A program made the position numbers and the translations under genes. The notes under the pieces are model-generated. The model was not told the DNA's origin. It did not search any database and saw only the letters and a program-made list of their open reading frames with translations. Source: Roseovarius litoreus (GTDB lineage: Bacteria > Pseudomonadota > Alphaproteobacteria > Rhodobacterales > Rhodobacteraceae). From it: a stretch of 64,000 nt of DNA. Shown here one piece after another: positions 3,610 through 62,522 of the stretch. Location: contig NZ_FRCB01000003.1 in assembly GCF_900142765.1 (NCBI RefSeq), forward strand, positions 62,001-126,000, written 5' to 3'. The first letter of the stretch is position 1. The number at the start of each line of letters is the position of its first letter.

Positions 3610-3673
3610 GTGGGGCAGCTAAATCCATTGCGAAAGAATGTGCAACCCTTGCGTCCGAAGGCCGAAAAACGGC

Positions 3674-3717
3674 CTTCGGTATCACGTCGGTATAACGTCG
3701 GTATCGCGTCGGTACTG
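3674..3717 (+). repeat. Dispersed 11-bp direct-repeat array, copy A
   Basis: Four consecutive 11-bp units: CTTCGGTATCA, CGTCGGTATAA, CGTCGGTATCG, CGTCGGTACTG. The same ordered set recurs at 13680, 37065 and 47707. The first unit overlaps a perfect 8-bp inverted repeat (CGAAGGCC at 3656-3663 and GGCCTTCG at 3671-3678, loop of seven). The array sits between valS and hisC, both on the minus strand, so its orientation is opposite to local transcription. No T-run follows the hairpin on either strand, so a classical terminator is not supported. Function unknown. Confidence 0.85.
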
Positions 3718-13637: not shown

Positions 13638-14003
13638 CCCGAATCAGGGTTAAGGCGCGGTAAAACAAGCGAAAAGAGCGTTCGGTATCACGTCGGTAAA
13701 ACGTCGGTATCGCGTCGGTGCCGAGGTCAGTGCAGGCCGGTGTTAACGCGGCGCGCGCTGTTGCGGATGGGCCGGCCTTGCCGGCCCTGACAGGCCGTCG
13801 CGGGCCGTCGCGGGCACAGGATCGGTGCAGGTCCGGCACTGCGCGTCCCGTGTGATCGGCGATGCGTATCTGCAGGAGCATGCCGCGAGGTGGGGATTGT
13901 AACAGGCCCACGGCGCAGCTAATCGTGGGGCATGTGTTTTTAACGAAATCGAATATGTGCGTGTTACCTGCTTCCGCCCGTCCAAGCATTTTAGAGGATC
14001 ACG
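13638..14003. other. 366-bp intergenic stretch with hairpin and repeat array
   Basis: This gap between suhB and the next regulator holds no convincing gene. It begins with a perfect 6-bp hairpin that uses the suhB stop codon (TAACCC at 13635-13640, GGGTTA at 13647-13652), without a following T-run. The copy B repeat array occupies 13680-13745. The rest is GC-rich, then turns more AT-rich from about 13920 (GTGTTTTTAACGAAATC), which probably contains the promoter of the regulator starting at 14004. Confidence 0.6.
13680..13745 (+). repeat. Dispersed 11-bp direct-repeat array, copy B
   Basis: Units in order: GTTCGGTATCA, CGTCGGTAAAA, CGTCGGTATCG, CGTCGGTGCCG, then two degenerate units AGGTCAGTGCA and GGCCGGTGTTA that keep the 11-bp phase. 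The first four correspond one-to-one to copy A. It begins 42 bases after suhB and runs in the same direction. A GAAAA motif lies just before the first unit, as in the other copies. Confidence 0.85.
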
Positions 14004-35494: not shown

Positions 35495-37057
35495 ATGGCA
35501 AAAGCTTTGAGACGCAGGCAGCGCGCGGGCGGGCGGGCAGGCAACGCGGAGCGCCGGGGCACCGCGGCGATCGAGCAGATGCCATGGGCGCCGCCGGTCA
35601 ATATCGACCGGCCCGTCGAGCCACTGGATGAGGCCGGGATCGCCGCGATCCATGATGGCGCGATGCGGATTCTCGAAGAGATCGGGATCGAGTTTCTGAA
35701 CCCCGAGGCTCTGGACATCCTGCGCGGATCGGGAGGCTGCACCATACGCGACGAGAATGTGCGCATGGGCCGCGACTTCGTGATGGAGATGATCGCAAGG
35801 GCGCCGCGCGAATGGACGATCACGCCCCGCAATCCTGCAAGACAGCTTGCCATCGGGGGGCGCCACATGGTGTTCGGCAATGTCTCGTCGCCGCCGAATT
35901 ACTGGGATTTGGCTCTCGGCCGCAAGGTGGCGGGCAATCGTGAGATGTGCCGCAACCTTTTGAAACTGAGCCAGTATTTCAACTGCGTGCATTTCATCGG
36001 CGGCTATCCGGTGGAACCGCAGGATATCCATGCCAGCGTGCGCCATCTGGATGTGCTCTATGACAAGCTGACCCTGACCGACAAGGTGGCCCATGCCTAT
36101 TGTCTGGGCAAAGAGCGGGTCGAGGACGTGATGGAAATGGTCCGGATCGCAGCCGGGCTGAGCGATGCCGAATTCGAGGCGCGGCCGCATATGTACACCA
36201 ACATCAATTCCACCTCGCCGCTCAAGCATGACTACCCCATGCTGGATGGCTGGATGCGGGTGGCGCGGCGCAATCAGGGGCTTGTGGTCACGCCGTTCAC
36301 CTTGGCCGGGGCGATGGCGCCGGTTACGATGTCGGGGGCGGTGACGTTGAGTCTGGCGGAGGGATTGTGCGCGGTGGTGCTGGCGCAGATCATCCGGCCG
36401 GGGGCGTGTTGTGCGATCGGGACTTTCACATCGAATGTGGATATGAAAACCGGAGCGCCAGCATTCGGGACGCCGGAATACATGCGCGCCACGCAGATGA
36501 CCGGGCAGATGGCGCGGTTCTACGGTCTGCCGATGCGGGCCAGCGGGGTATGTGCCGCGAATGTGCCCGATGGGCAGGCCATGTGGGAGACCTCGAACAG
36601 CCTGTGGTCGGCGGTGCAGTCGGGCGCCAACATGGTCTATCACGCCGCCGGGTGGCTGGAGGGTGGGCTGATCGCCAGCCCCGAGAAATTCGTGATGGAT
36701 TGCGAAATTTTACAGCATATTCAACGCTATATGGACCCTACCCTGACCGCGACCGGCCCCGAGGACATCGCGCTCGAGGCGGTGCGTGAGGTGGGCTGCG
36801 AGGGTCATTACTTTGGCATCCAGCACACGCAGGACCGCTATACCACGGCCTTCTATCAGCCCTTTCTGAGCGATTGGAGCAACTACGAGGCATGGGAGGC
36901 GGCGGGGGCTGCCTGGACGGCGCAGAGAGCGCATCAGGTCTTTCACGACATCATCGCAAGCTTCGAGCCGCCGCCGATGGAGGTGGCCATCCATGAGGAA
37001 CTGGCGGCCTTCGTGGAGCGGCGCAAGGCCGAGGGCGGGGCGCCCACGGACTTCTGA
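35495..37057 (+). CDS. Trimethylamine methyltransferase (MttB) family protein, non-pyrrolysine
   Basis: A 520-residue protein of the MttB superfamily, with NYWDLALGRKVAGN, MYTNINSTSPLKHDYPMLDG and YPVEPQDIHASVRHLD typical of the fold. No in-frame TAG occurs in the frame, so it lacks the pyrrolysine codon of methanogen MttB. Non-Pyl members demethylate betaines such as glycine betaine or proline betaine and pass the methyl group to a corrinoid protein. No corrinoid-protein gene is adjacent, so the acceptor must be elsewhere, or the substrate differs. An Arg-rich N-terminus (RRRQRAGGRAGN) is unusual. The ATG at 35495 follows AAAAGGAA. The repeat copy C begins 7 bases after its stop. Confidence 0.85.
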   Translation: MAKALRRRQRAGGRAGNAERRGTAAIEQMPWAPPVNIDRPVEPLDEAGIAAIHDGAMRILEEIGIEFLNPEALDILRGSGGCTIRDENVRMGRDFVMEMIARAPREWTITPRNPARQLAIGGRHMVFGNVSSPPNYWDLALGRKVAGNREMCRNLLKLSQYFNCVHFIGGYPVEPQDIHASVRHLDVLYDKLTLTDKVAHAYCLGKERVEDVMEMVRIAAGLSDAEFEARPHMYTNINSTSPLKHDYPMLDGWMRVARRNQGLVVTPFTLAGAMAPVTMSGAVTLSLAEGLCAVVLAQIIRPGACCAIGTFTSNVDMKTGAPAFGTPEYMRATQMTGQMARFYGLPMRASGVCAANVPDGQAMWETSNSLWSAVQSGANMVYHAAGWLEGGLIASPEKFVMDCEILQHIQRYMDPTLTATGPEDIALEAVREVGCEGHYFGIQHTQDRYTTAFYQPFLSDWSNYEAWEAAGAAWTAQRAHQVFHDIIASFEPPPMEVAIHEELAAFVERRKAEGGAPTDF

Positions 37058-37064
37058 AAAACGG

Positions 37065-37119
37065 CTTCGGTATCGCGTCGGTATAACGTCGGTATTACGT
37101 CGGTATCGTATCGGTGAAA
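37065..37119 (+). repeat. Dispersed 11-bp direct-repeat array, copy C
   Basis: Five exact-phase units: CTTCGGTATCG, CGTCGGTATAA, CGTCGGTATTA, CGTCGGTATCG, TATCGGTGAAA, with a possible sixth at 37120. It matches copies A, B and D with one extra middle unit. It starts 7 bases after the MttB stop, on the same strand, preceded by GAAAAACGG as in copy A. The longest regular copy in the window, so best for defining the unit. Confidence 0.88.
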
Positions 37120-38866: not shown

Positions 38867-39197
38867 GCCATGAGGGCAGAAGGGGCGGCGGCCCTGGCTG
38901 ACAAGGGGCGGGTGACACGGGGCAGGTGACACGAGACCGGTTGCAAGGCAGGCCCGGGCCGGGTGCGCCGCATGCAAGACATCTTGTTATTTTCGTTCCG
39001 GGTGCTAGGATTTCCGCATTTGAAGCAGAATGTGCCAATTCACGAGACTTGTAACGCAATGGTAATGGTAAACGAGTTGTTTTCTTGACCGCGGCCCGTT
39101 GTCTCCCAAGCTGATTTTTTCGCGGTTTGCGTGTGTTTATCAGCCCTGCGAGGCGATGGGACGACTGAAAATTTTGAAATTCAGGATTAAAATCGAT
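38867..39197. other. 331-bp gap, no gene seen
   Basis: No coding frame here is convincing. After a GC-rich start, the composition becomes more AT-rich from about 38980, with repeated short motifs such as GTAACGCAATGGTAATGGTAAACG near 39050-39074, then TGATTTTTTCGCGG. This probably includes the promoter of the winged-helix gene at 39198. No terminator was seen for the cyclase. Confidence 0.5.
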
Positions 39198-47072: not shown

Positions 47073-47681
47073 ATGGCCAGAACCCAAGGATCGCATTCCG
47101 ACATCACCGGCCCGCGGGTGCGGGAGGCGGCCTTGCGCCTTTTTGCCCGGGAGGGCTATGCCGCTGTTTCCATGAGACAAATCGCCGGTGAAGTGGGGGT
47201 GCAGGCGGGGGCCTTGTACAATTACACGCCCGACAAGCAGACCCTGCTGTTCGATCTGATGAAGGCGCATATGGATGATCTTCTGACAGCCTGGGAGGCG
47301 GAGGCGGCGCCCGAGCACCCGCTGGAGGCGCTGGAGCGGTTCGCAAGGTTCCATATCCGGTTCAACACCGAGCGGGCCGATGCGGTCTTTGTCTCCTATA
47401 TGGAGCTGCGTAACCTCAGCCCGAAAAATTTCGAGGTGATAGAAGGGCTTAGGCGGCGCTATGAGGATCAGCTGGAGCACATTCTGCGGCGGGGCGTGGC
47501 GCTGGGCCTGTTCGATGTGGCCGAGCCGAAGATCACCACGATGGCGGTGATTGCCATGTTGACCGGTGTGAATACCTGGTTTCGGGACGGGGGGCGGTTG
47601 AGCCTGCCGGATGTCGAGACGATCTATTGGGATATGGTGCGCAGGGCGGTGACTCCGGAACCCGCCGCGAATCGCGGTTAA
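47073..47681 (+). CDS. TetR-family transcriptional regulator
   Basis: A 202-residue TetR protein: N-terminal HTH (VREAALRLFAREGYAAVSMRQIAGEVGVQAGALYNYTPDKQTLLFDLM, about 15-58) followed by helical ligand-binding domain (FHIRFNTERADAVFVSYMELRNLS..LEHILRRGVALGLFDVAEPKITTMAVIAMLTGVNTWF). The C-terminal domain resembles TetR_C proteins of fatty-acid or acyl-CoA regulators, but the ligand is unknown. A perfect 20-bp palindrome lies just upstream and is probably its operator. The ATG at 47073 is favoured over the TTG at 47064. The repeat copy D begins 25 bases after the stop. Confidence 0.85.
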   Translation: MARTQGSHSDITGPRVREAALRLFAREGYAAVSMRQIAGEVGVQAGALYNYTPDKQTLLFDLMKAHMDDLLTAWEAEAAPEHPLEALERFARFHIRFNTERADAVFVSYMELRNLSPKNFEVIEGLRRRYEDQLEHILRRGVALGLFDVAEPKITTMAVIAMLTGVNTWFRDGGRLSLPDVETIYWDMVRRAVTPEPAANRG

Positions 47682-47706
47682 CGCTCTGAAAAGGCAGGAA
47701 AAACCC

Positions 47707-47761
47707 GTTCGGTATCACGTCGGTATGACGTCGGTATCGCGTCGGTGCGGGATCGGTGCAG
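47707..47761 (+). repeat. Dispersed 11-bp direct-repeat array, copy D
   Basis: Units GTTCGGTATCA, CGTCGGTATGA, CGTCGGTATCG, CGTCGGTGCGG, GATCGGTGCAG, in the same order as in copies A-C, preceded by GAAAAACCC. It is 25 bases after the TetR stop and 37 bases before the convergent end of the LuxR-type gene. Confidence 0.85.
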
Positions 47762-47798
47762 GGCGCCCTGTCACCAAGGGTTAACCGACCGCGCGCCG

Positions 47799-62230: not shown

Positions 62231-62522
62231 CATGTCCGGCTGTGTACGACTGGTACGAAACCTACGCGCATTTGGGACGAAAGGGGTTCGGGCCGGTTTC
62301 GGGGCAGTTTCGGGGGTGAAGGGGCGCGCGCCGGGTTGACGATTGGCCGGGCCGGGGCCGTGCTGGTGTCCAAACGCACGGAGGTGTCACCAAAGGGTAA
62401 ATACTGCGACCGCTTCGTGTTTGTGAACAGGCCGTGCGGTGGTGTCACCTGCTTGAAAGGAATGGGCGGGCGTGGCCGGGGCGTGCTATGCTTTGGGGCG
62501 TAACCTTTGAGGGGGAGACGGC

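Follow-up and report, generated by a model that had tools for sequence, protein, structure and literature searches.

The 64,000-nucleotide stretch of the Roseovarius litoreus genome analyzed here (the window) contains four intergenic arrays of contiguous 11-bp units, and these belong to a multicopy family of directional elements situated behind genes. We consider it about an even call that the arrays are dispersed DNA binding sites for a putative cooperative protein that acts on the chromosome and coevolves with the word that it reads.

Four phased arrays in the window

The positions at which a preliminary description had placed the four arrays (3674-3717, 13680-13745, 37065-37119, and 47707-47761) were confirmed, and Tandem Repeats Finder reports a period of 11 at each of them. 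Allowing up to 3 mismatches, the two-unit pattern CGTCGGTANNNCGTCGGTA matches the window 13 times, every time within the four arrays, against a mean of 0.30 matches over 100 dinucleotide shuffles, none of which reached 13. Arrays B, C, and D begin 42, 7, and 25 bases past a stop codon, within the 7 to 42 bases first reported, and array A is flanked, as also reported, by two minus-strand genes. Overlooked at that stage were the flanking modules GANTC, TTAA, GTTAAC, and GCGCGC around copies B and D. The features are as follows.

3674-3717, plus strand: array A, four 11-bp units, 3' of valS (a minus-strand gene) and in the opposite orientation to it
3655-3679, no strand assigned: hairpin at array A, with a perfect 10-bp stem and an A5 loop (A-tract 3665-3669), overlapping the first unit
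13680-13723, plus strand: array B, four 11-bp units, 3' of a suhB-like gene (name given by eye)
13640-13758, plus strand: complete composite around array B, with an orthologous composite in genome G056
Modules of array B: GAATC 13641-13645, TTAA 13650-13653, AAAA 13672-13675, GTTAAC 13742-13747, GCGCGCGC 13751-13758
37065-37119, plus strand: array C, five 11-bp units, with an A-tract at 37057-37061 and the outer modules absent
47707-47761, plus strand: array D, five 11-bp units, in a gap between convergent genes
47668-47797, plus strand: complete composite around array D, from GAATC to CGCGCGCC
Modules of array D: GAATC 47669-47673, TTAA 47678-47681 (within which the upstream gene has its stop codon), A-tract 47699-47703, GTTAAC 47780-47785, CGCGCGCC 47790-47797

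The hairpin at 3655-3679 is peculiar to the valS copy of its own clade, and in G056 and G033 its stems, compared by eye, are altered yet still paired. No Rfam RNA family matches over the arrays above its gathering score, the sole matches in the window being two tRNAs. Short intergenic tandem repeats occur elsewhere in the window at 13793-13815 and 38899-38933, with periods of 10 and 14.

A genome-wide family with a near-rigid anatomy

The genome-wide search that the preliminary description had called for recovered 40 strict copies of the 39-base array (up to 3 mismatches) in the R. litoreus genome (G000) and none with the reversed pattern, and many copies occur in relatives too, such that the repeat is neither limited to the four places in the window nor lacking in related genomes. 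The core is near-invariant in 30 aligned genome copies, and the GAAAA first noticed ahead of the first unit reflects a general A-tract 9 bases upstream, with A at position -9 in 26 of the 30.

In many copies the array is part of a near-rigidly spaced composite, about 130 bp long, that consists of GANTC (-40), TTAA (-30 and/or -19), the A-tract (-9), four units, GTTAAC, and GCGCGC. Among the 137 distinct arrays with enough flanking sequence, which come from R. litoreus and from named genomes of the family, offsets peak at -40 for GANTC, at -30 and -19 for TTAA, and at -9 and -10 for AAAA; behind the array, TTAA peaks at 18 bases and GCGCGCG or GCGTGCG at 26. GANTC occurs upstream (within 80 bases) in 70 of these arrays and downstream (within 100 bases) in 17, and TTAA is present upstream of 66, downstream of 68, and on both sides of 51. 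Outer modules are missing from many arrays, including copies A and C. In G380, all 12 copies viewed have CGAATC upstream, and 5 of the 12 have the exact downstream TTAA.

The CGAATC-GGTTAA flank is part of the array system. Searches for the module CGAATC-R-N(0-4)-GGTTAA gave 77 matches in 9 array-positive genomes (one of which, G056, has zero), 6 in 26 array-negative genomes, and 2 in the reversed control, and an array follows the module in 22 of 24 examples viewed from positive genomes and in none of 6 from negative genomes.

From 165 copies, the 34 that possess four units, GANTC, and downstream TTAA at the peak offsets align without gaps over about 130 bases, and no conserved RNA fold was found among them. 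Nor is a hairpin beside the array general, as the best stems average 3.8 bp compared to 3.4 bp in shuffles. The suggestion that the arrays are RNA elements acting at 3' ends is supported neither by the folding of these 34 copies nor by the orientation of the arrays relative to genes, which is free. Another intergenic repeat, with the palindromic word GTACGAAAC or TTTCGTACG, lies near several arrays: it is found behind arrays L022, L027, L045, and L110, at L189 in G007, and at about 62240-62270 in the window.

Patchy distribution and a second word

Arrays are present in 20 of 100 relatives (including R. litoreus itself), all of them among the 60 that belong to the same genus, and in 24 of 295 genomes of the family, some of these 24 having only one to three matches, mostly at 2 to 3 mismatches. 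Within a class-wide set of 385 genomes, the positives are 3 of the 5 family members and 1 of the 380 others, the latter an unrelated tandem repeat. Named genera among the matches listed (at least 113 stretches) are Roseovarius, Shimia, Salinihabitans, Pseudooceanicola, Sulfitobacter, and Boseongicola. Genomes thus have many arrays, few, or none. Blind sampling detected 7 arrays in 400 kb of the positive genome G016, no array of any word (and one unrelated lag-11 match) in 398 kb of the array-free G003, none in 100 kb each of G013, G009, and G108, and one weak or single candidate apiece in 200 kb each of G021 and G102. At L423:370-420 in G021, a lone 11-bp-phased array with the word TGCTNTA lies directly past a stop codon, with no second copy in 229 kb. 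Pseudooceanicola spongiae (G394) yields 257 lax matches, in many of which the last unit ends with GAACGGT, and among the 100 matches listed, those that have 0 to 1 mismatch and lie between 1.09 and 3.01 Mb are nearly all on the plus strand.

The reversed control over the 295 family genomes produced matches in five, of which G121 and G161 look like chance and the other three carry a second word. This word, TATGGC, forms phased arrays in three genomes, each of a different genus, that are without the first word; the units are GCGTATGGCTG in G244, CGTATGG in G166, and TATGGCTGC in G310. The lag is 11 in 18 matches and different in two. There are 26 distinct copies, and of the 20 with both neighbors and no gene overlap, 1 sits in a divergent gap. 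The A-tract of the first word has a counterpart in G244, where 7 of 10 copies have a run of three or more A's that ends 6 to 7 bases ahead of the first unit. The second word seldom comes with outer modules, GTTAA or TTAAC being present on 3 of 20, 5 of 18, and 0 of 14 sides, with 5 to 7% in ordinary intergenic windows. At one junction the two words occupy the same place: the gene pair around the G244 array of L420 also flanks first-word arrays of R. litoreus (L026) and of a Roseovarius assembly (L102).

Placement behind genes

The arrays are found behind genes, pointing either way, and are underrepresented in divergent gaps. Among 145 array rows, in which the local duplicate pair described below is counted twice (seen from two loci), 17 lack a neighbor, 11 overlap a predicted gene, and 117 have both neighbors and no gene overlap. 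These 117 comprise 37 convergent, 69 tandem, and 11 divergent gaps, compared to 29, 161, and 105, respectively, for ordinary gaps (100 bases or longer, taken from G003, G016, and the window; chi-square test, P = 1e-10), the arrays being drawn from more genomes than the control gaps. Within tandem gaps, 38 arrays run along the direction of the genes and 31 against it. Of 56 cases in which the upstream gene runs in the same direction, 30 have a GANTC that starts 2 to 16 bases past its stop codon. The neighboring genes, judged by eye, are mixed and housekeeping-looking.

Such placement is what would be expected if the arrays were two-way terminators or insulators, at which a bound protein halts RNA polymerase arriving from either flank and so replaces intrinsic terminators. 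The enrichment in convergent gaps, the proximity of GANTC to stop codons, and the free orientation all fit this explanation, which we nevertheless regard as unlikely. Judged by a crude rule (GC-rich hairpin plus a T run), 6 of 138 array ends and 5 of 239 control ends have an intrinsic terminator, an equal rarity that gives replacement no support; moreover, the arrays attend only some dozens of genes per genome, and array-free relatives manage without them.

With respect to replicons, the largest contig of G016 (5.45 Mb in a genome of about 6.2 Mb) carries every one of its 24 matches with 2 or fewer mismatches and of its 27 flank-module matches. Nucleoid-occlusion sites are absent from the terminus region. 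By eye, the 40 sites listed out of 50 (up to 3 mismatches) cover that contig of G016, whose skew samples show no clean origin or terminus. In G031, a 0.8-Mb gap in the arrays lies opposite gidB (by eye). The second contig of G007 bears three exact arrays, and confinement of the arrays to the main chromosome is accordingly not established.

A probably old site and signs of turnover

The array at the 3' end of valS is shared by eight genomes of the genus (G000, G056, G033, G016, G044, G008, G031, and G054), is lacking there in six other array-bearing genomes (G007, G014, G029, G053, G047, and G058), and occurs at this position in 0 of 16 array-free genomes. When mapped on a tree of valS from 29 genomes, the array-bearing label takes 7 changes, at least 5 of them on well-supported branches, and array presence clusters weakly (42 of 500 shuffles gave a value as low). 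The valS array and its convergent neighbor are orthologous between G016/G044 and G008/G031/G054, and array-free clades branch between or among these two groups; the simplest reading is therefore an old site that was lost in several lineages.

At suhB, G000 and G056 have the composite in common, with its modules conserved and its spacers changed, and in G341, which represents another genus, an array lies farther from the gene. Among the other 18 array-bearing genomes, 17 have no array within 260 bases of suhB, and the gene end was not located in G054. The lack of this array in most array-bearing genomes indicates that sites also turn over.

The patchy distribution, the high copy number, and the location in gaps behind genes are reminiscent of a mobile intergenic element (BIME-, ERIC-, or MITE-like) whose copies multiplied and have since been domesticated, the genome tolerating them or putting some of them to use, and point mutation would hardly build new composite sites. 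One local duplication is in evidence: on contig 4 of G000 (380.8 to 381.1 kb), L018 and L029 are near-identical arrays with near-identical flanks, 281 bp apart, the product of a recent event. This pair aside, spacers vary among the 30 aligned genome copies while module distances remain constant, and it is the modules that are conserved at orthologous sites. There were no matches among 72,556 plasmid records in PLSDB (with an unmasked query, on which chance matches fall), two stretches matched in a viral collection, and no transposase was seen by eye beside the arrays examined. Mobility, as raised in the preliminary description, may account for the origin of the copies, but there is no sign of recent movement beyond the one duplication, and a mobile repeat is a quite unlikely explanation of the arrays as they now stand.

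Candidates for the putative reader protein

Regulators of the OmpR/PhoB/CtrA type read 11-bp direct repeats, and the head-to-tail 11-bp units of the arrays could be operators of such a gene regulator. The two upstream TTAA peaks (-30 and -19) show the 11-base offset of TTAA-N7-TTAA, the CtrA site given for Caulobacter (PMC4287350) and for Dinoroseobacter (PMC4046655). We nevertheless find this improbable, given that divergent gaps are avoided (11 of 117), that neighbors are mixed and housekeeping-looking, and that most copies keep only one intact TTAA word of the -30/-19 pair. Furthermore, when PF00486 proteins from 4 positive and 3 negative genomes were grouped (excluding 4 of 88 matches that lacked a gene call), no ortholog group was shared by all 4 positives and missing from all 3 negatives, which argues against a dedicated OmpR-type regulator, although a universal regulator would escape that test. 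The nearest winged-helix group is a CadC-like protein in 3 of the 4 positives, with about 47% identity.

The reader was likewise not found among AP2 proteins, at parAB, or between close array pairs. The AP2 candidate arose from the plant DRE word, a target of AP2 domains, on the reverse strand; PF00847 matches 1 of 295 genomes, below the cutoff, and that genome is array-free, so an AP2 reader was rejected. The genes beside parAB are the same in positive G016 and negative G003, those between close array pairs are mixed (by eye), and recurrent array neighbors offered no clue, looking like housekeeping genes (by eye).

Comparison with known systems

SlmA (SBS), Noc (NBS), and MatP (matS) bind single short, mostly palindromic sites that also occur inside genes. 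The arrays resemble these in providing dozens of interchangeable sites per protein but differ in being 44 to 130 bp long, directional, located in gaps behind genes, and genus-dependent in their word. REP/BIME, ERIC, and the rhizobial intergenic mosaic elements are likewise intergenic, multicopy, and behind genes; those elements are palindromic, whereas the arrays are direct repeats with no conserved hairpin and near-rigid module spacing. Contiguous direct repeats of 10 to 11 bp are known from the ParR-bound parC centromere and from the arm-type sites of lambda integrase, which are confined to one locus per replicon or element, as opposed to at least 40 sites here. TTAA words 11 bases apart, with GANTC next to them, are reminiscent of CtrA boxes and CcrM GANTC sites, which in PMC4287350 and PMC4046655 are situated in promoters; here such words flank an array behind genes. 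Searches of an open-access collection, from which most subscription journals are absent, listed no paper on the arrays.

A putative chromosome-wide mark

The exact phase, the near-fixed module distances, the free orientation, the modules kept at orthologous sites, and the change of word together suggest a duplex-DNA-binding protein, and of the three possibilities raised in the preliminary description, a site for an oligomerizing DNA-binding protein fits best. Such a protein would sit head-to-tail on the 11-bp units, about one per helical turn, on double-stranded DNA beside the A-tract. In the lineage of the window, the site would often lie within a nucleoprotein element of about 130 bp, with GANTC and TTAA upstream of the array and GTTAAC and GCGCGC downstream. 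The sites appear to be interchangeable, in that there are dozens in nondivergent gaps, individual sites are gained and lost, and the word changes from genus to genus, suggesting a chromosome-wide role. The protein would thus probably serve the whole chromosome, through organization, tethering, or marking coordinated with replication and methylation, rather than the adjacent gene.

Beyond binding as such, it is possible, and we propose it only tentatively, that the arrays constitute a chromosome-marking system of a new kind in the Rhodobacteraceae, with a fast-evolving reader whose word was switched genome-wide between genera while at least one site remained unmoved, with GANTC methylation and CtrA-like boxes coupled to the system in some lineages, and with loss of the whole set in many. 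If so, part of a large bacterial family would possess a DNA mark spread over the chromosome, together with its reader protein, both apparently undescribed. The distribution of many, few, or no arrays, along with the second word, makes this reader findable through comparisons of gene content, and the junction that bears different words in two genera would allow a change in DNA-binding specificity to be followed across whole genomes.
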